Origin: Planctomycetota bacterium
GTDB taxonomy: Bacteria > Planctomycetota > Planctomycetia > Pirellulales > Pirellulaceae
Assembly (NCBI GenBank): GCA_029979005.1
Contig: JAPOIJ010000041.1
Coordinates: 1 to 32,367, forward strand
Direction: 5' to 3'
DNA length: 32,367 nt
The translations under genes were made by a program, and so were the position numbers. Positions 4,830 through 30,083 of the stretch are shown piece by piece (position 1 is the first letter of the stretch; each line of letters opens with the position of its first letter). The notes under the pieces were generated by a model. It did not search any database. It saw only the letters and a list, made by a program, of their open reading frames with translations, and was not told the DNA's origin.

Positions 4830-5546
4830 TTAGGCTTCTGTTGCATTGAGTGTTTGCTGGGCAACCATCATCCAATCGACTTGTTCATCAAACTCATCTC
4901 CTTCATACCGAAGTCTGGTAAGGACAGGGGAGACTGAGCGGCTTGAGATTTGTTCCCGATTCGTTTCCATGCTGACGTCACCATCAAACATCCTTGCGTC
5001 ATTCAGAATGACCCCCGCGATTGGAATTCCATCACGAAAGCAGGCGGCGGTAATTAAAGCAGAGAGTGACTGGTTAATCACACCGATTGAATTGGGTGCG
5101 ACGACGATGGTTGGGTATCCGAGATCGTAGGCGACATCGGCGAAATACTCATCGTCACTGATCGGTGACATAAGTCCACCTGCGCCTTCGACAATCACGA
5201 TATCGCACTCATCGGCCCACGCTGAAATCCCGGATCTCATCAACTCGGTATCGAGCTCGCGTCCTTCGTGTCGGGCGGCCAGATGCGGAGCGAGAGGCGC
5301 CTGGAATCGTTGAGGGCAAACGGCTTCCAGTGTCAGTGGGTGCCCTGCGGCTTCCCATAAGGCAACGGCGTCTTCGGAGACGAGTTGTCGTCCGTCAGAA
5401 ACACATTCGCTGGCAGCGGGTTTATAAACGCCAACGCGATGCCCAGCCGCCACTAAATCCTTGACGATATGGGTCGCAACGTAGGTTTTTCCTACTTCAG
5501 TATCCGTGCCGGTGATGAACAATCCGAAGGGTGGTTTCTTTAACAT
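4830..5546 (-). CDS. bioD: Dethiobiotin synthetase (ATP-dependent)
   Basis: Catalyses closure of the ureido ring of dethiobiotin from 7,8-diaminopelargonic acid, CO2 and ATP, the penultimate step of biotin synthesis. The 238 residues carry the P-loop GTDTEVGKT (13-21), the substrate-contacting YKPAAS (41-46), and the EGAGGLMSPI loop that binds the diamine and Mg2+. Length and motif order are normal for the family. No other biotin gene is adjacent, so the pathway must be scattered in this genome. It is divergent from aguB across about 160 bases. The ATG has an AAGG close in front rather than a well-spaced site, so the start is probable but not certain. Confidence 0.94.
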   Translation of the reverse strand: MLKKPPFGLFITGTDTEVGKTYVATHIVKDLVAAGHRVGVYKPAASECVSDGRQLVSEDAVALWEAAGHPLTLEAVCPQRFQAPLAPHLAARHEGRELDTELMRSGISAWADECDIVIVEGAGGLMSPISDDEYFADVAYDLGYPTIVVAPNSIGVINQSLSALITAACFRDGIPIAGVILNDARMFDGDVSMETNREQISSRSVSPVLTRLRYEGDEFDEQVDWMMVAQQTLNATEA

Positions 5547-5707
5547 GCCTTAAGACTACCATTGAGGAGATTAACGTCCAGATAGGAAGTCGGAATATCG
5601 CGTCTTCTTTCCTGAAGATCAACATTAAAATCAGGTTAGGGAAGCGATCAGAGCAAAGAAAATTTGGACGTTCCGCATTTATGGTTTCTATTCCCCGAGA
5701 TAAAAAC

Positions 5708-6574
5708 ATGAATTCCACTCTCGATATTGCAGTAATTCAGGCCACATGTCGTTCCGACGGGGAAGCGAATCTCAGGGCAACCGTTGGCCAGATTGTGGAC
5801 GCAGCGGGGGCGGGAGCGAAGCTCATTTGCCTTCAGGAGTTGTTTGCTTCGACTTATTTTTGCCAGTCTGAAAATCATGAGCATTTTGATTTAGCTCAGT
5901 CGATCCCCGGAGCGATCACAGATCAGTTGTCGAAACTAGCAAAAGAGCTACAGGTCGTAATTGTTGCGCCGGTGTTCGAGAGGCGGGCTGCCGGTTTGTT
6001 TCATAACTCAGCGGTGATCATTGAGTCCGATGGCTCTCTTTTGGGCACCTATCGAAAGATGCATATCCCCGACGATCCTTATTTCTATGAGAAGTTCTAT
6101 TTCACTCCCGGTGACCTTGGTTTTCAGTGTTTTGAGACGTCGGTTGGAAAAGTTGGCATTTGTATTTGCTGGGATCAGTGGTTTCCCGAAGCCGCTCGCT
6201 TGACCGCACTTCAAGGTGCTGAAATTCTTGTTTACCCCACGGCAATCGGATGGCAGGCGGGTGAAAAAGCAGAGTATGGTCAAAGCCAGCTGAATGCGTG
6301 GCAAACGATGATGCGATCTCATGCAATTGCCAACGGTGTGTTTGTGGTTGCGCCGAATCGAGTCGGCATCGAAGAGAATATTGAATTTTGGGGATCTTCC
6401 TTTGTGGCCGATCCGTACGGTGTCGTTCTCCAAACCGCTTCCGTCGAGCAACCGGAGACCATGATCGTCTCTTGCGATTTGTCATTGGTGGAAACAGCTC
6501 GAACGCATTGGCCATTTTTTCGAGATCGTCGAATTGACGCGTATGGTGATCTTTCTAAGCGCTGGCTCAACTGA
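5708..6574 (+). CDS. aguB: N-carbamoylputrescine amidase
   Basis: Nitrilase-superfamily amidase that converts N-carbamoylputrescine to putrescine, CO2 and ammonia; it is the second step of the agmatine route. The catalytic triad is visible: Glu44 (LQELFAS), Lys117 (YRKMHIPDDP) and Cys154 (ICICWDQWFPE). HIPDDP and the FYFTPGD segment are typical of the AguB branch. With the start at 5708 the protein is 288 residues, the normal size. The open frame extends back to 5531 and includes an ATG at 5681, but the extra residues are not family-like, and a CGAGA lies eight bases before the chosen ATG. The partner aguA follows after 42 bases, giving the complete agmatine-to-putrescine pair in one operon. 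Confidence 0.93.
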   Translation: MNSTLDIAVIQATCRSDGEANLRATVGQIVDAAGAGAKLICLQELFASTYFCQSENHEHFDLAQSIPGAITDQLSKLAKELQVVIVAPVFERRAAGLFHNSAVIIESDGSLLGTYRKMHIPDDPYFYEKFYFTPGDLGFQCFETSVGKVGICICWDQWFPEAARLTALQGAEILVYPTAIGWQAGEKAEYGQSQLNAWQTMMRSHAIANGVFVVAPNRVGIEENIEFWGSSFVADPYGVVLQTASVEQPETMIVSCDLSLVETARTHWPFFRDRRIDAYGDLSKRWLN

Positions 6575-6616
6575 ACTATTTTTGGATTTCTCTTTCAAAT
6601 TGTCGTGGTGGTTTAA

Positions 6617-7648
6617 ATGACGCAACCTCTTCCATTGACTATGCCTGCTGAGTGGGAGCGACAGTCTGCAGTTTGGCTGAGTTGGCCCCATAATCAAGAG
6701 ACATGGCCTGAAAATCTGGAACCAGCTCAGCGTGAATTTTTGGATTTGGTGCGCACAATCGCAACAACTGAACAGGTCATGGTCCTGGTCGATTTCGCAG
6801 AATGTGATCTGGCGGTGGAGACGATGCGTAGCTGGAATAATGTTACCTGCGTCGACATTCCTACCAACGATGCGTGGGCACGCGATTACGCGCCTACGTT
6901 TGCAATTGATTCTCGAGGCGGACTGGTTGCGGTCGATTGGCAATACAACGCCTGGGGAGGCAAATATCCTCCGTACGACCTCGATCAACAGGTTGCGAAA
7001 CGAGTGGCCGGGTATCTCGGGATTGACTACGTGTCTCCTCCATTTTGCTTCGAAGGTGGCGCGATCGAGGTGAATGATCATGGTGTGCTGCTCAGTACCC
7101 GATCATGTGCTCTGAATCCCAATCGCAACCCGGGAATGGATACCGGTCAAGTTGAATCTATCTTGAGGAAGTATCTTGGAGTGAAGGTTTGCCTATGGCT
7201 CACTGGAAATGCAATCGAAGGCGATGATACCGATGGACATATCGATCAAATTGCTCGATTTGTGAATCCAACCACAATTGTGGTGGCGGCAGATTGCGGG
7301 ACCGCTGAGGTTCGGCGCGAGGGTCTTGAGCGGAATCAGAAAGACTTGAAGGAACAACTAGAATTCCATGGATTAGGGCATTACCAAGTGATATCGTTGC
7401 CGTTGCCGAGTTCTTTCACATTCTGCGGCCGGGTGATACCGGCGAGTTATTGCAATTTTTTGATTACCAACGAACTCGTCATTGTTCCCCAATTTGGGGT
7501 GGAAGAAGACGAACAAGCCTTACAAATTTTAAGTCCTTGGTTTCCGGAAAGGGAAGTTGTGGGATTGGCCTCTAAGAATATTGCGGTTGGTTTGGGCTCG
7601 TTTCATTGTCTTTCACAGCAACAGCCAGAGATTCAAAAAAACATTTAA
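6617..7648 (+). CDS. aguA: Agmatine deiminase
   Basis: Converts agmatine to N-carbamoylputrescine and ammonia; it belongs to the guanidino-group-modifying enzymes related to Porphyromonas peptidylarginine deiminase. The 343 residues show the family's landmarks: NDAWARDYAP (about 84-93), FEGGAIEVN (145-153), the catalytic GDDTDGHID (202-210, His208) and the C-terminal nucleophile Cys331 within FHCLSQQQP. Most relatives have GGGNIHC before the nucleophile; here it is GLGSFHC, a mild change that leaves the His-Cys pair intact. A GGTGG lies shortly before the ATG. It follows aguB by 42 bases and is probably translated from the same message. The peptidylarginine deiminase alternative is unlikely because no signal peptide is present. 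Confidence 0.93.
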   Translation: MTQPLPLTMPAEWERQSAVWLSWPHNQETWPENLEPAQREFLDLVRTIATTEQVMVLVDFAECDLAVETMRSWNNVTCVDIPTNDAWARDYAPTFAIDSRGGLVAVDWQYNAWGGKYPPYDLDQQVAKRVAGYLGIDYVSPPFCFEGGAIEVNDHGVLLSTRSCALNPNRNPGMDTGQVESILRKYLGVKVCLWLTGNAIEGDDTDGHIDQIARFVNPTTIVVAADCGTAEVRREGLERNQKDLKEQLEFHGLGHYQVISLPLPSSFTFCGRVIPASYCNFLITNELVIVPQFGVEEDEQALQILSPWFPEREVVGLASKNIAVGLGSFHCLSQQQPEIQKNI

Positions 7649-15716: not shown

Positions 15717-16928
15717 TTAGTCCTCGTTTGTGATAATCACGCTTGATTCAGTATCCTGATAATCACGCAGTGATTCATCCGCATGTTTCTCGATTTCGAG
15801 GTCGTACTTCGAGATCGGCGCCGGTCTGCCGTAGTAGTATCCTTGGCCGAGTTGAAAACCCATTTGAACCAAGATGTCATGACACTCTCGGGTTTCAACT
15901 CCTTCAGCAAGCGTCTGAATTCCTAGATTGTTGACGAGCGTGGCAAACAAAGCGACCAACTCTTGACGCTTGATTGAGGCATGTTCGATGTTGTTCGTAA
16001 GTTTCATGTCAAATTTAAGGAAATCGGGTCGCACTTCTCCGAGTTCCACCAAACGCGCTTTTCCAACCCCGAAATCGTCAAAGGCCAACATGATGTTCAG
16101 GTCTTTCAGGACTGAGCAAAGCTCTCCCATTAGGGTCATGTTGGTCACCGCGGCTTCATGGATTTCGAGCGTGATTTTCTGCTCAGGTGCTGCCTTGCGG
16201 ACTTCTCGCAGTGAGTCGTAAAGTTCCGAGTTGCCAAGTTCTTTAGGGTGCGTATTGACAAAGAGGTTTGAATCCGGACCGAAAGCGGTGCCGATTTCAA
16301 CTCCACGGAGTCTGAAAGCTTCACTCAGTTGAGATTCCATATTTAACTGGGATGCCGCTTGGAACATTTCCTGTGGCGTTTGAAGACCAAACAGCCGACT
16401 GCGTCCGAGAACTTCATAACCGACGAATGCCTGATCTTCGAGTTGCACGATGGGTTGAAAGTGTGGATAAAGTCCGCCGTCACTGATTAGTTTTTCGAAC
16501 TGAATCATCGCAAGCGCCTGGTCACAAACGTCCTCATGAACGGTGTTATAGGAACCAACACTCTCTTGGTTAACCCCGACGCGAAATACGAGAGCGGCAA
16601 AATGAATTAGGTCATTTTCCTGAATTTCTCTTTCACCTGTGATTTGTTCGCCGTTGACAAACGTTCCATTGGTGCTGCCAAGTTCGCGCAGCGTTAATCG
16701 TCCATCATCCGACACGATGATTTCAGCATGGTTTTTCGAAATGCAACCGTCAGGCAGGTGCAGCGAAGAGTCGGATTTCCGGCCAATGGAAAAAGGAGTC
16801 GAATGAATTGGAAACTGACGATTGGGTTGCGAGGGGTCGAGTTGACCAGTCAAAAACCAACGACAGTTTTTGGGTGCTTTTCCCTCACTTTGAGGGATGT
16901 TTGAGCTGATTGCATTCAAGTCGATCAT
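15717..16928 (-). CDS. FHA domain-EAL domain protein (phosphothreonine reader/c-di-GMP phosphodiesterase)
   Basis: A 403-residue soluble signalling protein. Residues about 45-118 are an FHA domain, which binds phosphothreonine peptides: GR at 49-50, SKNH at 64-67 and GSTNGTFVNG at 84-93 are the canonical contact residues. Residues about 150-375 are an EAL domain, which hydrolyses cyclic di-GMP: Glu172 (YEVLGR), Asn225 (FVNTHP), Glu255 (LEIHE), Asp284-Asp285 (FDDFG), Lys305, Glu342 (AEGVET) and Gln362 (GQGYYYGRP) are all kept at near-canonical spacing, so it should be active. There is no GGDEF domain and no membrane helix. It faces away from the AAA+/kinase-tubulin pair across 459 bases; FHA is a natural reader for that kinase, which is an inference from context. 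Confidence 0.92.
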   Translation of the reverse strand: MIDLNAISSNIPQSEGKAPKNCRWFLTGQLDPSQPNRQFPIHSTPFSIGRKSDSSLHLPDGCISKNHAEIIVSDDGRLTLRELGSTNGTFVNGEQITGEREIQENDLIHFAALVFRVGVNQESVGSYNTVHEDVCDQALAMIQFEKLISDGGLYPHFQPIVQLEDQAFVGYEVLGRSRLFGLQTPQEMFQAASQLNMESQLSEAFRLRGVEIGTAFGPDSNLFVNTHPKELGNSELYDSLREVRKAAPEQKITLEIHEAAVTNMTLMGELCSVLKDLNIMLAFDDFGVGKARLVELGEVRPDFLKFDMKLTNNIEHASIKRQELVALFATLVNNLGIQTLAEGVETRECHDILVQMGFQLGQGYYYGRPAPISKYDLEIEKHADESLRDYQDTESSVIITNED

Positions 16929-17387: not shown

Positions 17388-18716
17388 ATGTTTACTCAAA
17401 CCCCGCCAAGCCTCGGCTCTGGATTGCTCGCGACCATTTTGGCCGACGAGTCATTTCGCCCCTCAGAACCCAATTCGCTTCCAGAAACAAGTTTGCCAAA
17501 TTCTCTGATTGAGAACTTGTTACTCAAACGACTCGCTGTGGTAGGAATGAGTAGCGGACGTCAACTTTCTAATGATCTGTGTTTACCATTTAGCGTGTTA
17601 CAAAAGTTGTTTGCACAACTTCGATCGCGGCAGATCATTGTTCATAACGGGTCGGCACCACTCAATGATTACAGTTACACTTTGACTGAAAGCGGTCGCG
17701 AGCGGGCGGCGCTTGCAAGTCAGCACTGTTCTTATGTAGGACCGGCTCCAGTTCCTTTAATGGACTATGTCCTTAGCGCGGAGGCCCAGACGATCCGGGC
17801 CGAGTCACCAAAACGCAAGCAACTTCGAAACGCCTTCGGCGATATCTCGATTAACGAGTCGCTCTTCGAGAATCTAGGACCTGCGATTAATTCCGGTGCC
17901 GGATTGTTTTTGTATGGAGAACCCGGGAACGGGAAATCGACGCTGGCTCATCGAATTACCCGGTGTTTTGGTAATGAAATCTGGGTTCCGCATGCAATTT
18001 ATGAAGATGGTCACATCATCAAATTTTTCGATGCCGCCTATCACAAACCTGCTCAAGATGATTCTAATTCACTGATTCACGAGGCTGCTTACGACAAACG
18101 CTGGGTGAAGATACGCCGGCCAACAGTCGTTGTCGGCGGTGAATTAACGATGGATTCACTGGAAATTCGTTACAACCGGAACAGCAATGTCAGTGAAGCT
18201 TCGCTGCAGATGAAAAGTAATTGCGGTTGTCTTTTGATTGATGATTTTGGCCGCCAGCGAATTGAACCGCAAGAATTATTAAATCGCTGGATTGTCCCAC
18301 TGGAGAGTCGAGTTGATTTTCTCAAGTTGGCAACGGGCAAGAAAATTATGGTGCCGTTTGAGCAGTTGATAATTTTTTCAACGAATCTTGAACCGAGTGA
18401 CTTGGTCGACGAAGCATTCCTTCGTCGGATTCCGTACAAGATTGAAATTAGCGATCCTTCTACCAAAGAATTCCACGTTTTATTCGAGATTTACTGCGAT
18501 AAATTGGGGTTTGAGTATGACGCTGAAGTGGTTGATTACTTGATCGAGACGCACTTCACCTCGGCCTCGCGGCGACTGAGGCGATGCCATCCGAGAGATC
18601 TTTTGACGCAGATTAGAAATTTCTGTGCTTACAATGAGTTGCCCGTTGAAATTCGTCCTGAATATTTTGACCGAGTTGTCAAAAGTTACTTTACGGAAGT
18701 TCTAAATAAGAATTGA
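17388..18716 (+). CDS. Winged-helix AAA+ ATPase
   Basis: A 442-residue predicted ATPase. Residues about 40-110 look like a winged-helix domain (LPFSVLQKLFAQLRSRQIIVHNG then YTLTESGRERA, typical of a wing followed by a terminal helix). The AAA+ core follows: Walker A GEPGNGKST (177-185), Walker B CLLIDD (281-286), sensor-1-like FSTN (330-333) and paired arginines LRRIPY (345-350) where a finger or sensor 2 would sit. An insertion with WVKIRRPTVVVGGELT lies between Walker A and B. The C-terminal 60 residues form a helical lid ending in the basic RRLRRCHPRDLL. There is no signal peptide. It precedes the kinase-tubulin gene by 365 bases on the same strand. It might remodel proteins or bind DNA; the target is unknown. 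Confidence 0.85.
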   Translation: MFTQTPPSLGSGLLATILADESFRPSEPNSLPETSLPNSLIENLLLKRLAVVGMSSGRQLSNDLCLPFSVLQKLFAQLRSRQIIVHNGSAPLNDYSYTLTESGRERAALASQHCSYVGPAPVPLMDYVLSAEAQTIRAESPKRKQLRNAFGDISINESLFENLGPAINSGAGLFLYGEPGNGKSTLAHRITRCFGNEIWVPHAIYEDGHIIKFFDAAYHKPAQDDSNSLIHEAAYDKRWVKIRRPTVVVGGELTMDSLEIRYNRNSNVSEASLQMKSNCGCLLIDDFGRQRIEPQELLNRWIVPLESRVDFLKLATGKKIMVPFEQLIIFSTNLEPSDLVDEAFLRRIPYKIEISDPSTKEFHVLFEIYCDKLGFEYDAEVVDYLIETHFTSASRRLRRCHPRDLLTQIRNFCAYNELPVEIRPEYFDRVVKSYFTEVLNKN

Positions 18717-19081: not shown

Positions 19082-22000
19082 TTGAAATCTGAACGACTAG
19101 AATCTCAGCGCGACATTCTCGGCTACACGCTTCAGAATCGGATTGGTACCGGCGGGTTCGGTGAGGTCTGGTCGGCCATTGCGCCGGGCGGTCTTTCCAA
19201 GGCACTGAAGATTATCTACGGATTTCACGACGAGAAACGGGCACAATCGGAACTGAAGTCACTCGATCGAGTCAAGGCATTGCGACATCCGTTTCTGCTC
19301 TCGCTCGAAAGAATTGAGGTTTACGAAGGCCAGTTAGTGGTCGTCTCCGAATTAGCTGACCAGAGTCTGGCAGAAGCATTCAACGAGTATACCGCAAAGG
19401 GGCAGTTGGGAATTCCTCGAGCTTTGGTGTTGCGTTATCTCCGTGGAGTCGCAGAGGCTCTCGATTATATGCGTGAAGAGCACAAGCTCCAGCATCTCGA
19501 CATTAAGCCGGAAAACTTATTGTTAGTTGGGGACCATGTTAAAGTTGCTGATTTTGGATTGATCAAGGACATTGATGCCGGCTCGCACTCACTGATGTCC
19601 GGGATGACACCTGCGTATGCGGCGCCGGAGCTGTTTGATGGCTGTCCGGGGATGCATAGTGATCAGTACTCTTTGGCAATTGTCTACCAAGAAATGCTAA
19701 CCGGCACCCGTCCGTTTCCGGGGAACACACCCGCACAGCTCGCTGCGCAGCATCTTCACGGAAAGCCAAACTTGAGACTGTTACCGAAAGGTGATCAGCC
19801 GATTGTGGCCAAAGCACTCTCAAAAGACCCAACGTTGCGGTATTCCACTTGCGGCGATTTCATTAACGAGCTGGTCAATAAGAAGCGAACTGTTAAAAAA
19901 TCGGTGCGTCGATCAGATATCCATCTCGATGTGGATTCGAACACGATGACCTTGCCAGGTTCTAACAATAGTCAACAGGTCACGCCAACGCTGTCTGGGA
20001 TGGGCTTGCCTTACAAGGGAACTGCACTGAAGTCCCTAGGTCCACCCGACTGTAACCCTCAACAGGCGAAGTTGCGACCGACGCTGGTGGTTACGATCGG
20101 TGAGACTGCGAATCGAATCGCCCATAAATTAAAAAAGCAAATTGGGTGCCGGCATGGAGACCTCGCAGAATTACCTTCGACTGAAATACTCGCCATCGAC
20201 ACTGACCGTCAGGCATTAAATGAATTGTGTGCAATTGGTGTTAACGGTGCGTTAGGCGTGAGTGAGGTGATTGATGTTCCTCTGCGAAAGCCTGAAGTAT
20301 ATCGTGACCGCACGCATTCTCTGCTTTCCTGGTTGGGGCGACGCTGGATTTATAATGTGCCACGGTCACTGCAAACTGAAGGATTGCGCCCCCTTGGAAG
20401 ACTTGCGTTTGCAGATCACTTCGACATGATTTGCAATCGCATTCAAGAGAGTCTTCGCAAGATCATGGCGGTTGAAAATCTTGCAAAGTCGGCGGACAAA
20501 TTAAATATTGATCCCGGTGAATTATCCCCCCGGGTATTTCTGGTGACCTCAATCAGTGGCGGTGTTGGCAGTGGAATGGCCCTCGATCTTGCCTACACAC
20601 TCAAGCTGCTGATGAACGAGAATAACATCGATTCCAATACACTTTGTGGAATATTGTTGCATTCGACGTGCAAACAAAAACGCGATCCAACTCTCTCGAC
20701 AGCGAATTCGATTTCATTTTTGACGGAGATGCGGCATTTTGTAGAGCGTGGCTACACCGGAGATCCAACGATCGGGTTGCCTGATTTTGAAAATGAGCCG
20801 CCTTTTGATTTTACTTACTTCAACGATTTGGGGCACGATTTGAGGTCAAGTGAATTTGATCACAATCTTGATCAAGTCGCGGAGTACATTTATTTGTCAA
20901 GCACTTCCCGTTGTGCTGAGTTTTTGGATAAATGTCGCGATATTGAGTCGGATTTTGATCACTTTTCCCTTCGGACGTTTGGAATGAGTTCCACAGGTCC
21001 CGGGAATTTAAAAACTGGACAGGACGCCGTTAGTCGGGTCGCCAGTGGGTTGGTCTCGCGATGGTTGGGAGGTGAACGCGGTAGGCAATTCAACGCGAAT
21101 GAATTTATTGACCGTCAAATGGCAGTGGCTGGATTGGGAGAATCCCAGTTAATTCAGCGGATTTCTGGTGTCGCAGAAAATGTATTCGAAGGCAAGATTG
21201 GAACGATCGTATCTGATGCAAAAGAAATAGTTTTAGCGACCTCGGTTGATTCGCGAGAAACGATACAAGAGTTTCTCGATGGTGTTTTTGGTGCCTCCGG
21301 CGCGGCCAACGCCGAAAGTGTTGAGCTGGAAGTTTGTCATCAGATGAAAGAGCTTACCCAACAAATGGCCGCGAAAGATGCCGGTGTTTTGCAGGCTGAG
21401 ATTTTTAAAATGGTCAGTAGCCAGGAACTGAATATTTTTAAAGCGCAACAATCGATTGACTGTCTCCTTGCGAGACTCGATGGAGTTCAGGTAAAGCTTG
21501 AGCAGTCTATTCGCAGTCATCGTTCTGATTTAGGAGTCAAACTGAACGAATTGCGTCCATTTTCTGACGAGCGAGCACGGTCGAGTCAAGAGTTTGAGGT
21601 GAGATTCGATCGAGCTGTTAGTGCCTACTGCGATGCGAGATGTACTGAATTTTATCAGCGTTTCGCGACGTCCTATTACCGGACCGTTGCTCGTGAATTG
21701 GATTCAACTCGGGAAATGATTTACAAGTTCAAAACTAAACTTGAAAAAATACAGGTTGATTTTGAATCCTTCGAAGAAATTGAAGAGGTGGAGACCACTG
21801 ATGAATTTAACATGAATCAAATTTTCAGCGATAATATCAATCGGGATCTCGATCAACAAATATTGAAAACCGAACTGCAAGTTTACCAATCACTGATTCG
21901 AGACTGGGGCGATTACGTTAGCGTATTTAATGATGCGTCGCTCATGAGGAGCCAATTGCCGCAGCAAATCAGATCGTCAGCACAACGCGTTTTAACCAAT

Positions 22001-22384
22001 GCTTATAAAAAAGTATCATTGGATGATGTGGTTCAAAAAGAAAATATTGGCCCTGAACAGTTAGTGAAGTGGGCGAAAGATCGCATCCGTGAGGCAAGGC
22101 CTGAGGTTGACGATTGCGGCGGCACTTGCCGGTTGATGGTTGGCATGCCGGCGTTGTCCGGTGAGTCGATGCTGCCAAGAATCCTGGAAAATAAATTCAA
22201 ATTAAAGAACTGTGCAGTCAACGGGACTCAAGGTAATTTCGTGCTCTGTTTCGAAGGCGAGGACGTCCCGCTTGCTAATGTGGCGTTTCGATTGCTCGAG
22301 AGCCAACCGAATGCTCCCGAATTAGTAAGGCGAATCAATACCAGAAATGACATTGATTGGTCGACGCTCGATGAATTGCTGTAG
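19082..22384 (+). CDS. Ser/Thr protein kinase fused to a tubulin/FtsZ-like domain
   Basis: An 1100-residue cytoplasmic protein, with no membrane helix. Residues about 10-270 are a complete Hanks-type kinase: glycine loop GTGGFGEV (22-29), Lys43, catalytic HLDIKPEN (138-145), DFG (157-159), activation-loop MTPAYAAPE (175-183) and Asp194. A Ser/Thr-rich linker (270-330) leads to a tubulin-like region: LVVTIGETANRIAHKL (335-350), LAIDTD (370-375), and VTSISGGVGSGMALDLA (488-504), the last equivalent to the GGTGSG nucleotide-binding loop of FtsZ and tubulin. This fits the bacterial tubulin-like family (Tubulin_2 type). The C-terminal half (about 690-960) is charged and helical with coiled-coil character. 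The start is TTG, fixed by GAGGA at 19072-19076, five bases away. It follows the AAA+ gene on the same strand. Confidence 0.88.
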   Translation: MKSERLESQRDILGYTLQNRIGTGGFGEVWSAIAPGGLSKALKIIYGFHDEKRAQSELKSLDRVKALRHPFLLSLERIEVYEGQLVVVSELADQSLAEAFNEYTAKGQLGIPRALVLRYLRGVAEALDYMREEHKLQHLDIKPENLLLVGDHVKVADFGLIKDIDAGSHSLMSGMTPAYAAPELFDGCPGMHSDQYSLAIVYQEMLTGTRPFPGNTPAQLAAQHLHGKPNLRLLPKGDQPIVAKALSKDPTLRYSTCGDFINELVNKKRTVKKSVRRSDIHLDVDSNTMTLPGSNNSQQVTPTLSGMGLPYKGTALKSLGPPDCNPQQAKLRPTLVVTIGETANRIAHKLKKQIGCRHGDLAELPSTEILAIDTDRQALNELCAIGVNGALGVSEVIDVPLRKPEVYRDRTHSLLSWLGRRWIYNVPRSLQTEGLRPLGRLAFADHFDMICNRIQESLRKIMAVENLAKSADKLNIDPGELSPRVFLVTSISGGVGSGMALDLAYTLKLLMNENNIDSNTLCGILLHSTCKQKRDPTLSTANSISFLTEMRHFVERGYTGDPTIGLPDFENEPPFDFTYFNDLGHDLRSSEFDHNLDQVAEYIYLSSTSRCAEFLDKCRDIESDFDHFSLRTFGMSSTGPGNLKTGQDAVSRVASGLVSRWLGGERGRQFNANEFIDRQMAVAGLGESQLIQRISGVAENVFEGKIGTIVSDAKEIVLATSVDSRETIQEFLDGVFGASGAANAESVELEVCHQMKELTQQMAAKDAGVLQAEIFKMVSSQELNIFKAQQSIDCLLARLDGVQVKLEQSIRSHRSDLGVKLNELRPFSDERARSSQEFEVRFDRAVSAYCDARCTEFYQRFATSYYRTVARELDSTREMIYKFKTKLEKIQVDFESFEEIEEVETTDEFNMNQIFSDNINRDLDQQILKTELQVYQSLIRDWGDYVSVFNDASLMRSQLPQQIRSSAQRVLTNAYKKVSLDDVVQKENIGPEQLVKWAKDRIREARPEVDDCGGTCRLMVGMPALSGESMLPRILENKFKLKNCAVNGTQGNFVLCFEGEDVPLANVAFRLLESQPNAPELVRRINTRNDIDWSTLDELL

Positions 22385-22423: not shown

Positions 22424-23395
22424 CTATTTTTCCAAAACATACGCGAAGATTAACGGCGCGACGATTGAGGCATCGGAGTTAATCATGAACCGCGGTGTGT
22501 CCGCTGCTAATTTACACCAGGTGATTTTTTCATTGGGCACGGCGCCGGAGTAAGAACCATAGGAAGTGGTTGAGTCTGAGATTTGAGCGAAGTACTGCCA
22601 AAGTCGAATATCTTTTTTCAAGTCTTGAATGATCGTTGGAACGGCACAGATTGCAAAGTCTCCGGCGATTCCGCCCGCGATTTGGAAAAATCCAATTGGA
22701 GCCTGAGCATCCGTTTCTAAATACCAGTTCACGAGATGCTCCATTTGCTCGGTACCCGATCGTAGTGCATGGTGTGATTTGATTTTCTTTTCAATGCACC
22801 TCGCAGCGAAGATATTCCCAAGTGTTGAATCCTCGAAGCCCGGCGAGTAAACCGGAATCTGTTTTTCATAAGCTGCCAAAAGCCAGGAGTTAGCCGGATC
22901 GATCTGAAAGTGAGATTCGAGTACACCGGTTTCAAACAGTTTGTAAAAAACCTCGAAGGGAAACAGGCTTGCTCCTTTGTTGGCATTCTCAGCGCAAATG
23001 GACATGAAATTTCCTTCAAGATGCCGCATCACGGTTTCCGGAATACATGTGTCCGTGACCCGGTTAAACCCTTCCTCGAGCAGCGCTGTTTCATCGCTTG
23101 GCGAAAGGTCTCGATAGTTAGGGACTACTCGATATTCATCGTGGGCGACCAAATTGAAGACATCTTCTTCTAGATTAGCGCCGGTGCAGGAGATGGCGTG
23201 AACTTTGTCCATACGGATCATCTCGGCCAGAGAAATGCCGAGTTCTGCCGTACTCATTGCCCCCGCCAGGCTGACCAGCATTTTTCCACCAGCGGCGAGA
23301 TGTTCTTTGTAGCCTCGCGCGGCGGCGACCGTTTCTCTGGCATTAAAATGCAGGAAATTCTGTTCAAGAAAATCAGAAATGGGGGAATTCGACAT
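22424..23395 (-). CDS. Deoxyhypusine synthase-like protein
   Basis: A 323-residue NAD-dependent enzyme of the deoxyhypusine synthase family. The eukaryotic enzyme moves the aminobutyl group of spermidine to eIF5A; bacteria have no eIF5A, and bacterial relatives are thought to act on free polyamines (for example making homospermidine), so the product is an inference. Seen here: LVSLAGAMSTAELG (40-53), ISCTGANLEEDVF (68-80), the GFEDSTLGN segment (186-194), the FQIAGGIAGDF stretch (237-247) and ITWCKLAADT (291-300) with Lys295 at the position of the catalytic lysine (V-S-W-G-K in eukaryotes). Length is slightly shorter than the human enzyme. It is convergent with the kinase-tubulin gene (39-base gap). 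Confidence 0.9.
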   Translation of the reverse strand: MSNSPISDFLEQNFLHFNARETVAAARGYKEHLAAGGKMLVSLAGAMSTAELGISLAEMIRMDKVHAISCTGANLEEDVFNLVAHDEYRVVPNYRDLSPSDETALLEEGFNRVTDTCIPETVMRHLEGNFMSICAENANKGASLFPFEVFYKLFETGVLESHFQIDPANSWLLAAYEKQIPVYSPGFEDSTLGNIFAARCIEKKIKSHHALRSGTEQMEHLVNWYLETDAQAPIGFFQIAGGIAGDFAICAVPTIIQDLKKDIRLWQYFAQISDSTTSYGSYSGAVPNEKITWCKLAADTPRFMINSDASIVAPLIFAYVLEK

Positions 23396-25631: not shown

Positions 25632-28211
25632 ATGCCACACAGGTTAATATCTATGATTATTCAATTTGCACCGGTCAAATTTGTGTTTGCGAGAGGCCAA
25701 AACAACGTTTTCGTTGGCATGCTGCTGGTCTTTTTATTGGTTGCTTTCAGCTTAGAGACTGCTCAGGCTCAGACTACCCGCGCAGAGGACTTGAAATTGC
25801 CAGCTGGTTTTCGGGCCGAGCTGTTGTATAGCGTGCCCGGTGAACAAGGTTCGTGGGTTTCGATGACTTCGGATCCACAAGGGCGATTAATCGCGTCCGA
25901 CCAGTACGGAAAACTTTATCGGATTACTCCCGGTGCCGGGGATTCGTCTAAGGTGGAACAAATTGATTTGAGTATCGGTTTCGCACAGGGCTTGTTGTGT
26001 GCTTTTGACAGTTTGTACGTAGTCTCTTACGGAATTAGTCCTCCAAAAGTAAAAAAGGGCGAAAAACCAGGTAAGAAGACGGAAGCAAAACCTGCTGGTT
26101 TATATCGCGTCCGGGATACCAATCAGGACGACCAATATGACAGTGTTGAATTACTGCGCGAGTTTGTTGGGAAGTCGGAACATGGTCCTCATGCGGTGAT
26201 CCTTAGTCCGGATAAGAAATCACTTTATATTTGTGCTGGCAATGCCACAAAAATTCCCAACCCTGAAACGACACGTGTCCCCAAATTATGGAAAGAAGAT
26301 CAGGTGCTCAACCGCCTGCCTGATGCCCGAGGTCACGCTGCAGGGCGACTTGCGCCAGGCGGGTGGATTTGCAAAACGGATCCTGATGGTAAGTCGTTTG
26401 AATTGGTGGCGATGGGGTTTCGTAACGAATACGACATTGCCTTTGATCCCAACGGTGAGTTGTTTACCTATGATGCAGACATGGAGTGGGATGTTGGGCT
26501 TCCCTGGTACAGACCGACAAGAGTTTGCCACGTGGTGAGCGGAGGTGAGTTTGGCTGGAGGCATGGGTCGGGGAAGTGGCCGGAGTATTATCCCGACAGT
26601 GTTCCTCCTGTGTTAAATATTGGTCCTGGTAGTCCAACGGGCATCGTGTTTGGAACTGGCGCGAAGTTTCCAGCCGATTATCAAAATGCGTTGTTCATTT
26701 CTGACTGGAGTTACGGCATGATTTATGCCGTTCGAATGTCTGCCAACGGCTCAAGTTATCGTGCGACCAAAGAAAAGTTTTGTTCCGCACCGGCTTTGCC
26801 TGTGACGGATCTAGTCATTAACCCTGTGGATGGTGCCATGTACTTTTTGGTTGGTGGCCGTCGTTCTCAATCAGCGCTCTACCGCGTTACCTATGTGGGT
26901 GACAAGTCGGTTGCGCCTGCCGTTTACCCCGATCTTGACGATGCGGTCGCAGTAAGGCGAAAGCTGGAGTCATTTCATATTCCAGGTGCCGTTGTCGACT
27001 GGCCGTTGGTTTGGGAAAAACTGGCGGATCCCGATCGAATGATTCGCTATGCGGCGCGAACAGCGCTGGAGTTGCAGGATTTTGATAAGTGGCAGGATCC
27101 TTTTGCAGCAACTCAACCACAACGTGTGCTGGAGTTAATGACAGCCGTCGCGCGATGTGGTGATGAACAGAATCAGGCAAAGGTAATTGAGCAACTTGCG
27201 AAGCTAGATTGGAATCAACTTTCGAGAGAGCAGAGGCTTCATTTGATTCGCGTTTATGGGTTGACGCTTTGCCGATTGGGTGCGCCGACTGAGTCAACGC
27301 AAGCGTCTATTCGAAGTTTAGCTCAGCATTTTCCGGCTGAGGATGAACAATTGGATCGCGAATTGGCCAAGCTGTTAGTCGCCGTCAAAGCAGAAGAAGT
27401 GACCGCCAAAATCGTCGATAAATTGTTGACGCCCAGTGCTCAGGAACCGCAAATCGCCTACGCGATGATTTTGAGCGACGCACAAACCGGATGGGACAAT
27501 GCTCTTAGAGAAAAGTATTTTCGCTGGTTTGTAGAATCTGCAAAAACCAAAGGTGGTAATTCGTTTGGTGGATACATTAACAACATCAAGAAATACGCGG
27601 TCGAAAAGTTGTCGAATCAGGAGAAAAAAGATTTGGCGAAGGTGTTGGCATTGAAGCCGGAAGTTAGCGATCCGTACGCTGACCTAAAGGCAAGGCCCGT
27701 CGTCAAGAAATGGGCAATGGATGATTTTATGGATGATTTTATGGATGACGAAAAAACCATGTTTGCGAATCGAGATCTTGAAAATGGAAAGAAAATGTTC
27801 GCGCTTGCAACGTGTTATAAATGTCATCGAATGGAAGGGCAGGGCGGGATTGTTGGTCCTGACTTGACTCCCGCCGGGCATCGCTTTAGCACTCGCGATT
27901 TAATTGAGACCATCGTTGATCCGAGTAAAGAAATTTCGGATCAATATGAGGCAACGATTTTCCAGCTCGACGACGGAACAATGGTTACCGGGAGGGTCGC
28001 GAATCTAAACGGAAATCGATACATGGTTCAGGAGAATATGATTGACCCTGGAAGATTTACCAATGTCCAGGTCGATCAAATTGAAGTGATGAAGCCTTCG
28101 AAAACCTCGATGATGCCGACGGGGTTGCTCGATACTTTGACGCGCGACGAAATCCTCGATTTGTTAGCGTATATGAAATCGGTTGGAAAACGGGCAGCTG
28201 GCGGGCAATAA
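25632..28211 (+). CDS. Secreted beta-propeller/HEAT/cytochrome c protein (Pirellula/Verrucomicrobium haem type)
   Basis: An 859-residue exported protein. A long signal peptide ends AQA (about residue 46). Residues about 50-430 form a PQQ-sugar-dehydrogenase-like beta propeller (repeated short strands such as GLYRV, ELFTYD and GGEFGWRHG), 440-690 is helical and HEAT-like (DPDRMIRYAARTAL), and 715-855 is the cytochrome c-like domain with haem motif CYKCH (728-732) and the downstream GPDLTPAGHRFSTRDLIETI and PTGLLDTLTRDEILDLLAYM elements. This is the planctomycete/verrucomicrobial arrangement for periplasmic dehydrogenases whose substrates are mostly unknown. GGAGG at 25618-25622 is nine bases before the ATG. 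A short in-frame repeat (DDFMDDFMDD) precedes the haem domain. Confidence 0.93.
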   Translation: MPHRLISMIIQFAPVKFVFARGQNNVFVGMLLVFLLVAFSLETAQAQTTRAEDLKLPAGFRAELLYSVPGEQGSWVSMTSDPQGRLIASDQYGKLYRITPGAGDSSKVEQIDLSIGFAQGLLCAFDSLYVVSYGISPPKVKKGEKPGKKTEAKPAGLYRVRDTNQDDQYDSVELLREFVGKSEHGPHAVILSPDKKSLYICAGNATKIPNPETTRVPKLWKEDQVLNRLPDARGHAAGRLAPGGWICKTDPDGKSFELVAMGFRNEYDIAFDPNGELFTYDADMEWDVGLPWYRPTRVCHVVSGGEFGWRHGSGKWPEYYPDSVPPVLNIGPGSPTGIVFGTGAKFPADYQNALFISDWSYGMIYAVRMSANGSSYRATKEKFCSAPALPVTDLVINPVDGAMYFLVGGRRSQSALYRVTYVGDKSVAPAVYPDLDDAVAVRRKLESFHIPGAVVDWPLVWEKLADPDRMIRYAARTALELQDFDKWQDPFAATQPQRVLELMTAVARCGDEQNQAKVIEQLAKLDWNQLSREQRLHLIRVYGLTLCRLGAPTESTQASIRSLAQHFPAEDEQLDRELAKLLVAVKAEEVTAKIVDKLLTPSAQEPQIAYAMILSDAQTGWDNALREKYFRWFVESAKTKGGNSFGGYINNIKKYAVEKLSNQEKKDLAKVLALKPEVSDPYADLKARPVVKKWAMDDFMDDFMDDEKTMFANRDLENGKKMFALATCYKCHRMEGQGGIVGPDLTPAGHRFSTRDLIETIVDPSKEISDQYEATIFQLDDGTMVTGRVANLNGNRYMVQENMIDPGRFTNVQVDQIEVMKPSKTSMMPTGLLDTLTRDEILDLLAYMKSVGKRAAGGQ
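27717..27746 (+). repeat. 12-bp in-frame tandem repeat
   Basis: ATGGATGATTTT occurs twice in tandem (27717-27728, 27729-27740), followed by a partial third copy starting at 27741. It encodes DDFMDDFMDD just before the haem domain and could be a slippage-prone acidic linker. Confidence 0.85.
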
Positions 28212-28913: not shown

Positions 28914-30083
28914 TTAGAGCCAGCTCATGGGATAGCTTGGATCATCCATTTCCATCGCTTGTTGTGTGAGGAAAAGAGGACGGTCAGTGTCGTACATGAC
29001 GGCCATTTCGTTTGTGAAATCCATCCCCATGCTCTTCATGATGGTTCCTGGGTGTGGACCGTGAGGAATCCCGCCGGGATGGAGTGTCATGCTGCCTATG
29101 TCGACTCCCTTACGTGAACCAAATTCGCCGTCGACGTAGTACAGGACTTCATCAGCTTCGACGTTGCTGTGGACGTATGGGACTTTAACTGCTTTGGGAT
29201 GATGGTCGAGATGCCTTGGTGCGAATGTGCAAATCACAAACCCTCTCATCTCGAATGTCTGTTGGTAAGGAGGGGGCAGGTGGAGGGTGCCAGTCAGTGG
29301 TTCAAAATCCCAGGCATTAAAAGTGTAGGGATAGAGAAAGCCGTCCCAGCCGACGACGTCGAATGGGTTATTGGCCATGACGACGCGCGTTAGTTGACTG
29401 CCATTTTTAATGAGGATCGATGTTTCGACTTCTTCGTCCTGTGTATCAAGCTCAATTGGGCTGTGAAAATCTCGCTCGCTGTAGGGCGAACCAAGGAGCA
29501 TCTGCCCGTCTTGGTTGAGGTATTGCTGCGGAATCCGAACGGGTCCGTTGCTTTCGATGATCAGATGGTCTTCTACCGAAATAGAATCGCTGACAATGCG
29601 GTAATTGCAGGTCCTTGGAATGACGCAGTAATCCCCGCGGCGGTAAGGGAGTCGCCCGTACGTGGTTTCGATATACCCTTGGCCATGATGAATAAAGATG
29701 ATTTCATCGGCAGCCGCATTTCGGTAAATCTCTGCCTGTTGTCGGTCGGGTCGGACACGGTAAGCGGTAAGATCTTCATTGAACATCATGGGGACGCGAT
29801 CGGTTACCGGATCACCACCTCTGACGAGGTTTCCGGATTTTATGTGGTGATGTCTCAGTTCTTGATCTGAGCAAGGCTTCACTTCGATTTTACCGACGGT
29901 CTCCGTTGAGACGACGCGTGTTGGAGGTCGGCGATGGTAAAGGATGCTATAGACGCGATCGAATCCCTGAGTCGTGACAACATGTTCATAGAACAGGCCC
30001 TCATTCAAATAGCTTTCGCCCTGATTTTCAAATTGCATGTGGCGTTTGGGGGGGATTTCCCCGAGGCGGCGGTAGCTAGGCAT
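28914..30083 (-). CDS. hmgA: Homogentisate 1,2-dioxygenase-like protein
   Basis: Cupin-fold, non-haem iron dioxygenase. Homogentisate dioxygenase opens the ring of homogentisate to maleylacetoacetate in tyrosine/phenylalanine catabolism. The 389 residues follow the family's two-domain cupin layout, including IIFIHHGQGYIET (128-140), NNPFDVVGWDGFLYPYTFN (238-256) and the metal-binding C-terminal part: His305 (YVHSN), Asp311/Glu312 (ADEVLYY) and His341 (GGIPHGPHPG). The spacing from His305 to the acidic ligand is one residue longer than I expect if Glu312 is the ligand, so it may belong to the shorter branch of the family found in non-proteobacteria. No fahA or hppD is adjacent. It is the first gene of a likely two-gene operon with the flavin-reductase-like gene. 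Confidence 0.85.
   Translation of the reverse strand: MPSYRRLGEIPPKRHMQFENQGESYLNEGLFYEHVVTTQGFDRVYSILYHRRPPTRVVSTETVGKIEVKPCSDQELRHHHIKSGNLVRGGDPVTDRVPMMFNEDLTAYRVRPDRQQAEIYRNAAADEIIFIHHGQGYIETTYGRLPYRRGDYCVIPRTCNYRIVSDSISVEDHLIIESNGPVRIPQQYLNQDGQMLLGSPYSERDFHSPIELDTQDEEVETSILIKNGSQLTRVVMANNPFDVVGWDGFLYPYTFNAWDFEPLTGTLHLPPPYQQTFEMRGFVICTFAPRHLDHHPKAVKVPYVHSNVEADEVLYYVDGEFGSRKGVDIGSMTLHPGGIPHGPHPGTIMKSMGMDFTNEMAVMYDTDRPLFLTQQAMEMDDPSYPMSWL

Follow-up and report, generated by a model that had tools for sequence, protein, structure and literature searches.

A planctomycete FtsZ-like-1 protein with a built-in Hanks-type kinase, and its association with genes for an FHA-EAL protein and a winged-helix AAA-type ATPase

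The FtsZ-like 1 (FtsZl1) proteins, which correspond to the Pfam family Tubulin_2 (PF13809), were already known in 2010 (Makarova and Koonin 2010, PMC2875224); in the accessible text of that paper an N-terminal kinase is reported in four planctomycete members, a protein with a vWA domain is placed in the majority of FtsZl1 operons, and a reviewer's exchange mentions a cyclic di-GMP (c-di-GMP) phosphodiesterase beside the Pirellula staleyi gene. A kinase-tubulin fusion is also described in PMC9871819, and in PMC11032199 the tubulin-like domain is the commonest among the domains found only in cytoplasmic kinases of the phylum; the fusion is therefore no candidate for a new architecture. In the portions of the literature accessible to us we met no tested function for FtsZl1 proteins. 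The stretch analyzed here (the window) comprises 32,367 nucleotides of a Planctomycetota bacterium of the Pirellulaceae (assembly GCA_029979005.1, contig JAPOIJ010000041.1), and the gene under study, at positions 19082 to 22384 of the forward strand, encodes a planctomycete FtsZl1 (Tubulin_2) member with a built-in Hanks-type serine/threonine kinase. Near it lie genes for a protein with an FHA and an EAL domain (FHA-EAL) and for a winged-helix AAA-type ATPase, and what was found suggests that the fusion recruits a reader of phosphothreonine carrying a c-di-GMP-type domain. The fusion is thus already known, and its FHA-EAL/AAA setting was not found in the open-licence literature, as covered by titles and opening abstracts, with supplements outside the scope. 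FHA does not occur in the main text of PMC2875224, and the accessible part of that paper, supplements excluded, mentions neither the AAA partner, nor the linker motif described below, nor joint loss of kinase and FHA-EAL; the accessible parts of PMC10936438, PMC4672568 and PMC7159879 hold nothing on the fusion/FHA-EAL pair.

With described FtsZl1 proteins the fusion shares the Tubulin_2 domain, the kinase at the N-terminus and a long C-terminal part that is helical; a vWA, OmpA-like or P-loop GTPase partner was not found among the 20 window proteins scanned, a vWA neighbor being the typical FtsZl1 context rather than what defines the family. Two other described systems resemble the setting. 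In Bdellovibrio DgcB (FHA-GGDEF) an FHA domain is likewise coupled to a c-di-GMP enzyme domain and the threonine ligand is hydrophobic at +2 and +3; as given in the accessible text, DgcB makes c-di-GMP, its FHA domain binds its own tail, and the kinase is unknown (PMC6733907). Unlike in DgcB, the partner here carries an EAL domain, and the kinase and the proposed ligand both sit in the fusion protein. In the Halo_FHA clade of haloarchaeal ESCRT systems, an FHA protein, an AAA ATPase (Vps4) and Ser/Thr kinases are likewise found together, a setting that has been read as phospho-dependent recognition; the core of those systems is ESCRT-III and Vps4, however, with no Tubulin_2-kinase fusion and no EAL domain found in the accessible text (PMC10936438), and the window's AAA protein is of the winged-helix type, different from haloarchaeal Vps4.

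The fusion gene is a single uninterrupted frame of 1100 aa with a TTG start. A Pfam scan of its product placed PF00069 at residues 15 to 268 (19124 to 19885; E 4e-31, 108.8 bits against a cutoff of 31.7) and Tubulin_2 at residues 335 to 622 (E 1e-24, 87.9 bits against a cutoff of 27), scores so far above the cutoffs that neither is a chance match, whereas the classical Tubulin/FtsZ model PF00091 covered only residues 484 to 508 at 14.3 bits, below its cutoff of 33, and FtsZ_C (PF12327) was not found in the protein. In the whole genome there was one Tubulin_2 match (90.1 bits). An earlier note on this DNA, made from the sequence alone, had described an intact Hanks kinase at about residues 10 to 270, a Ser/Thr-rich linker and the signature loop GGVGSGM at residues 493 to 499 of a tubulin-like region in the same chain; this observation is confirmed, with the linker at residues 269 to 332 (19886 to 20077), in the gap between the kinase and tubulin matches, and the loop at 20558 to 20578. 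The kinase retains the glycine loop (GTGGFG, residues 22 to 27), the lysine (K43, in KALK), the catalytic aspartate (D140) and DFG (residues 157 to 159, with D157) of a Hanks kinase, followed by APE at 181 to 183. HLD stands at D140 where HRD is usual, and such a change suggests a kinase independent of activation-loop phosphorylation. The kinase domain is shared with PknB-type kinases, from which the fusion differs in HLD, in the PASTA domain, which was not found in the Pfam scan, and in its match to the PknB model NF033483 (residues 106 to 299, E 7.5e-26, 91.3 bits), which falls below the cutoff of 450. HLD is retained in 77 of 78 relatives and DFG in 76 of 78; the outliers are L086, which is cut by a contig edge, and L073, which is without the DFG stretch.

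The earlier note also held that bacterial tubulin-like proteins usually stand alone and proposed a survey of the kinase-tubulin order. In the loci sampled here the fusion was the common form, and for planctomycete FtsZl1 proteins it has been in print since 2010. Among the relatives, which are the best 80 of 98 loci from a scan of genome contigs with an alignment of 18 tubulin-and-tail parts, 77 have a near-complete kinase and the tubulin part in one frame; in the remaining three (L086, with a partial kinase, and L055 and L084, with none) the frame begins where the contig does. The closest named contig among these 80 is from Mariniblastus sp. (WTFU01000050), at 97% over the tubulin part and tail, and the window is probably part of a Mariniblastus-like genome. 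Tubulin_2 was matched in 50 of 393 genomes of the phylum at E <= 0.001, with 46 above the cutoff; of 30 loci drawn from these matches, 25 carry a kinase in the same frame and five do not (L112, whose frame begins at a contig edge, L114, L115, L121 and L128).

The FHA-EAL gene of the window, its conserved partner (403 aa), lies on the reverse strand at 15717 to 16928, with the FHA domain at 16599 to 16790 and the EAL domain at 15822 to 16496; the AAA gene, a frequent partner (442 aa), lies on the forward strand at 17388 to 18716, so that the order is divergent FHA-EAL, then AAA, then fusion. We searched with tblastn within 8 kilobases (kb) of the fusion in the 53 loci whose upstream sequence exceeds 4.5 kb and whose downstream sequence exceeds 3 kb, and found FHA-EAL in 51 and AAA in 40; predicted frames alone had given 46 and 38, and the genes missed there were found by tblastn. 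Outside the Mariniblastus group, FHA-EAL was present in 36 of 36 loci and AAA in 25 of 36, against 0 to 4 of 36 for eleven other window genes used as controls. The arrangement varies: AAA, fusion and FHA-EAL follow each other on one strand in L063, L093 and L095, FHA-EAL directly precedes the fusion in L072 and L090, and L204 has FHA-EAL, AAA and fusion on one strand. In the two of the 53 loci that lack these neighbors, L041 and L046 (genomes G009 and G020), FHA-EAL and AAA adjoin each other elsewhere in the genome, away from the fusion.

The same setting extends to part of the phylum. Families f1 and f21 together with the window's own order (Pirellulales) account for 33 of the Tubulin_2 loci matched in the phylum. 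In a neighbor search of these that scored up to four candidates per genome, with FHA-EAL accepted at E <= 1e-15, 30 of the 33 have an AAA homolog within 10 kb; G042 and a further 20 regions were tested by profile. FHA-EAL lies by 31 of the 33 (22 by the search; G042, L195 to L200, L202 and L203 by profile); the two left are G182, a Tubulin_2 protein without a kinase, and G055, a short partial match. By contrast, neither FHA-EAL nor an AAA homolog was found by profile in ten regions of the Gemmata-type family f23, one per genome and holding 14 kinase-tubulin frames; two of these regions, L188 and L192, are truncated at the end of a contig. The absence of FHA-EAL from the Gemmata-type fusions suggests that the partner travels with one branch of the fusions.

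Presence and absence across related genomes tell the same way. In a sample of 60 such genomes, the window's own included and up to 12 candidates per genome scored in nearly all, the tubulin part was matched in 40, with relatives at 45 to 97% identity, and not in 20. A full-length FHA-EAL is present in 38 of the 40 (37 by single-sequence search, of which G023 has only a 46% paralog, and G042 by profile), and among the matches listed for the 20 genomes without the tubulin part none spans both FHA and EAL; these 20 include G018, with an 89% FHA-EAL fragment at a contig edge, G051, with an EAL-only match, and G055, which was counted as being without the tubulin part and has the short partial Tubulin_2 match. 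The two exceptions among the 40 both concern the kinase. G040 encodes a Tubulin_2-type protein without a kinase (L172, G040:C247, 4649 to 7165), with an AAA gene directly upstream, and in G031 (L174, G031:C29, 7129 to 10479; also L030) the kinase has HLN for HLD and an altered glycine loop; a profile search of both genomes gave no match spanning FHA and EAL. The absence of FHA-EAL from the two genomes in which the kinase is missing or degenerate turns what would have been a guess from a single sequence into a testable prediction.

Conservation within FHA-EAL is uneven between its two domains. Both are clear by Pfam (PF00498, E 4.6e-18; PF00563, E 3.1e-41). For the FHA domain the binding residues, chosen from general knowledge, are R50, S64, H67 and N87; in an alignment of 61 FHA-EAL proteins the first three do not vary across the 59 rows that have a letter there, and neither does N87 across 60 such rows. 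The eight catalytic residues of the EAL domain, likewise chosen from general knowledge, are all intact in the window protein and in 38 of the 61 proteins; among the other 23, L085 is cut by its own frame and L062 retains seven, and the EAL domain is degenerate in a distant clade. Reading of phosphothreonine thus looks like the constant function of the partner and c-di-GMP turnover like the variable one. In the window's clade the EAL domain is predicted to be an active c-di-GMP phosphodiesterase, and with seven GGDEF matches in the genome, c-di-GMP is probably made in the host. In L090, a gene at 6158 to 7525 encodes a response regulator with GGDEF and CBS domains (Pfam, with that protein alone scanned); in the distant clade, proteins of this type lie near 20 loci, 15 of them among the 21 with a degenerate EAL domain, and are mostly divergent from FHA-EAL. 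As a candidate for the matching cyclase the L090-type neighbor was rejected, since by a simple pattern the GGDEF signature is missing in 17 of the 20; of the three proteins that do match the pattern, two read GADDL and SADDL, and L071 is a match to generic GGDEF.

The AAA protein is a less exclusive partner. Residues G177 to K183, D285 and D286, S331 to N333, and R346 and R347 are conserved in 47 rows, and we take them to be the Walker, sensor and arginine residues; no Pfam match was above its cutoff. Its structural model has a mean predicted local distance difference test (pLDDT) score of 72 with a poor core (the other four models, 48 to 61), so that the Foldseek match to a Pyrococcus protein titled uncharacterized (8p49, E 2.6e-7) is a mere hint. 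Members of the family were matched in 105 of the 393 phylum genomes, many of them without Tubulin_2, with several paralogs per genome in part of the phylum; the tie to the fusion therefore concerns one orthologous group. In the genus the fusion gene was found in 24 of 28 genomes (in G007 split over two contig ends), and 16 genomes outside the genus have more distant relatives of it. Within the genus a close AAA ortholog (at least 74%) is present in all 24 genomes with the fusion and in none of the four without, which have AAA paralogs only, at 47 to 50%.

The linker holds a candidate for a site that FHA-EAL could read. In DgcB and OdhI the FHA ligands are hydrophobic at +2 and +3, that of DgcB being pT-S-I-V (PMC6733907), and the residue at +3 affects FHA binding (PMC5549992), in each case as given in the accessible text. 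The motif T.[VILMT][FILVM] was chosen after looking at the linkers, which are poorly alignable, and was compared with these ligands afterwards. It is present in 21 of 21 linkers of the Mariniblastus group and in 36 of 57 other Pirellulales linkers, against 13.5 of the latter in shuffles. In a test set of 12 loci with less than 85% kinase identity to the discovery set, near-duplicates excluded (L132 is the same as L083), the motif occurs in 8, against 2.8 in shuffles, and 3 of 2000 shuffles reach this count; without L127, the same gene as L031, which had been looked at before the motif was chosen, it occurs in 7 of 11, against 2.6, and 2 of 2000 shuffles reach it. Thinning to less than 70% kinase identity, with discovery rows included, left 18 of 33 against 8.1, reached by 0 of 2000 shuffles. 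The serine analog is not enriched in these sets (14 against 16.5 in shuffles for the other Pirellulales, 2 against 3.2 for the test set, 7 against 10.2 for the thinned set), nor is the motif itself enriched behind other kinases of the genome (8 of 23 against 6.3; from 34 matches 30 loci were taken, less the fusion and six in which too little sequence follows the kinase) or in Gemmata-type fusions (2 of 10 against 3.6), the last of which fits their missing FHA-EAL. In the window the candidate autophosphorylation site would be T301, in the FHA-ligand-like stretch VTPTLSG (residues 300 to 306; 19979 to 19999).

The simplest and most likely account of these results is a scaffold that marks itself, with a proposed write-and-read step supported by the conserved FHA residues, the motif enrichment and the co-loss. 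The kinase would phosphorylate its own linker at a threonine with an FHA-ligand-like context, in the window protein T301. The FHA domain of the partner would bind the phosphothreonine, docking would place the EAL domain, degenerate in the distant clade, on the tubulin-like scaffold, and the AAA protein might remodel or reset the assembly. We regard the chances as roughly balanced that the fused kinase marks the linker for docking of FHA-EAL on the scaffold, with AAA taking part in most of the lineages examined. More tentatively, kinase activity might control the presence of a c-di-GMP phosphodiesterase (in the distant clade, of a degenerate c-di-GMP-type domain) on a tubulin-like assembly that AAA resets. 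The earlier note had suggested that the kinase could phosphorylate its own linker or tail to control polymerization or membrane association; the FHA-ligand-like threonine motif and the closely linked FHA partner lend indirect support to action on the linker, in the changed form of a docking mark, so that its interpretation as a whole is partly supported. No sign that the kinase controls polymerization or membrane association was seen. Were the docking proposal true, a tubulin-family protein would be linked through three genes to protein phosphorylation and c-di-GMP, in bacteria in which FtsZ_C was not found (0 of 40 genomes, see below); the FtsZl1 family would then have a definite partner, a phosphosite open to testing and an output.

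Several observations weigh against this proposal. The motif is short and was picked by inspection; it is absent from 21 of the 57 other Pirellulales linkers, and of the 12 test rows 4 lack it although their kinase motif set is intact; in the window copy, T-P-T-L, the context of T301 is fair at +3 and weak at +2; and in the Mariniblastus set the serine analog also exceeds shuffles (14 of 21 against 6.4). The loci are related, so the counts are not independent events, and neighboring genes may be lost jointly when a single contig is missing (compare G018); with at most 12 candidates scored per genome a very divergent tubulin part could be missed, and only two kinase losses underlie the co-loss of kinase and FHA-EAL. 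Gemmata-type fusions lack FHA-EAL (0 of 10 regions) yet retain their kinase motifs (none flagged), so the kinase has a role without the partner there. The EAL domain is degenerate in about one-third of the partners, which argues against c-di-GMP hydrolysis as a universal output. FHA-EAL homologs also occur in phylum genomes without Tubulin_2, and the host genome has 12 FHA matches, which makes other phosphothreonine readers possible.

Two other explanations keep some weight, and both appear to us unlikely. One is that the targets of FHA-EAL are other phosphoproteins, or a site elsewhere in the fusion such as the activation segment, and that the linker motif is incidental. The linkers without the motif and the 12 FHA matches would fit this, as would the 33 further kinase-family matches that the genome holds besides the fusion; however, the enrichment is specific for threonine in the test and thinned sets and is not seen in the 23 other kinases of the genome or in Gemmata-type fusions.

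The other, which was the reading of the earlier note and is close to that of the 2010 family paper, is a cytoskeletal or membrane-remodeling filament in which the kinase acts on the linker or tail to control polymerization or membrane association and FHA-EAL is a separate regulator; we consider it improbable to a similar degree. It draws on the fold, on which the docking proposal also rests and which is supported by Pfam and by structure comparison. A confident AlphaFold2 model of residues 329 to 1100, built on an alignment of 73 sequences, has a mean pLDDT of 88.4 and a predicted TM-score (pTM) of 0.81, and a Foldseek search of the PDB gave 24 matches at E <= 0.001, all titled CetZ, FtsZ or tubulin. 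The top match was archaeal CetZ2 (4b45; E 1e-5, 334 columns, TM-score 0.51 by target length) at 12% identity; unlike in CetZ, the tubulin part shares its chain here with a kinase and an extensive helical region. When PDB chains were searched with a sequence profile of the tubulin part and tail, the best 60 of 104 matches were coiled-coil-like and other helical proteins, with no FtsZ among them, and the fold assignment thus rests on Pfam and the predicted structure. The earlier note had named two outcomes that would speak against it, a model without a tubulin fold around GGVGSGM and a hidden Markov model search placing the region in an unrelated family; both were looked for, and neither was seen. 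The tubulin/FtsZ-like GTPase fold extends over residues 329 to 661, approximately (20066 to 21064); the GG.G(S/T)G loop of the tubulin/FtsZ fold is present and conserved (G493 and G498 in 73 of 73 rows), and the block holding most of the invariant columns of the family is RRWIYNVPRSLQTEGLRPLGRLA (residues 420 to 442; 20339 to 20407).

Whether this fold forms a filament is a separate matter. In FtsZ the elements follow in the order S6, H7, T7, H8, and in the model a strand at 577 to 585, a helix at 589 to 607, a short loop and a helix at 612 to 624 suggest the same succession, by order of elements rather than by superposition. The helix that follows the T7-like loop has an acid close to its beginning (D616 in the window protein), which is conserved as D in 50 rows and as E in 8 out of 73, so that a T7-like acid, and with it hydrolysis, is possible in the family. 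FtsZ_C (PF12327) was matched in 0 of 40 genomes of relatives, the window's own included, and in 13 of 14 control genomes, which also counts for the filament. GTP binding, hydrolysis and polymer formation by the tubulin-like part are possible properties; the T7-like loop is short and the placing of its acid depends on the order of elements, and in the accessible text of PMC2875224 the T6-H7 elements are not confidently identified and filament formation is left open. A filament controlled in this way also leaves unexplained the lack of FHA-EAL in the genomes whose kinase is absent or degenerate.

A biological-conflict or defense system like the GTPase-tubulin-HSP70 systems of 2020 is very improbable. 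Tubulin-like proteins occur in such systems (PMC7159879, accessible text), and the AAA protein has partial matches to IetA (PADLOC, E 4.6e-8 over residues 325 to 377; NCBIfam IteA, E 1.8e-6, far below its cutoff), but no linked vWA, HSP70 or TRAFAC GTPase was found among the 20 window proteins scanned, the PADLOC matches of the fusion fall in the kinase region and FHA-EAL has none, and presence in 24 of 28 genomes of the genus is unlike a patchy mobile system. That the fusion stands in for FtsZ in cell division is highly unlikely, for although FtsZ_C is absent from 40 of 40 genomes of relatives and found in 13 of 14 controls, Tubulin_2 was found in only 50 of 393 phylum genomes and 20 of the 60 related ones gave no match to the tubulin part, so that division does not in general depend on it.

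Beyond the tubulin-like fold, the long charged helical tail of the earlier note was borne out for most of its length: residues 665 to 1003, approximately (21074 to 22090), are mainly helical by the secondary structure of the model, but the chain then ends in a separate small alpha/beta domain (about residues 1004 to 1100; 22091 to 22381) with conserved CGG and R.NTR.DI.W motifs. As to the spread of the gene, a single scan of viral contigs gave no relative of the fusion. The contig of L086 is labelled Candidatus Nealsonbacteria and carries a planctomycete-type kinase-tubulin gene; it is perhaps misplaced. In family f23, ten genomes carry three Tubulin_2 loci apiece, and in its regions (L185 to L194) the Tubulin_2 loci fetched are kinase-fused, standing in tandem in L185, L186, L188 and L190.

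Other genes of the window were noted in passing. A carbon-nitrogen hydrolase (5531 to 6571), a Porphyromonas-type peptidyl-arginine deiminase family protein (6617 to 7645) and a deoxyhypusine-synthase-like protein (22424 to 23395), which among NCBIfam models matches one for homospermidine best, though below the cutoff, possibly belong to a polyamine pathway spread over the window. Further downstream lie genes for a large PVC-type heme-binding (CxxCH) protein (25632 to 28211) and a divergent homogentisate-dioxygenase-like protein (28914 to 30083).

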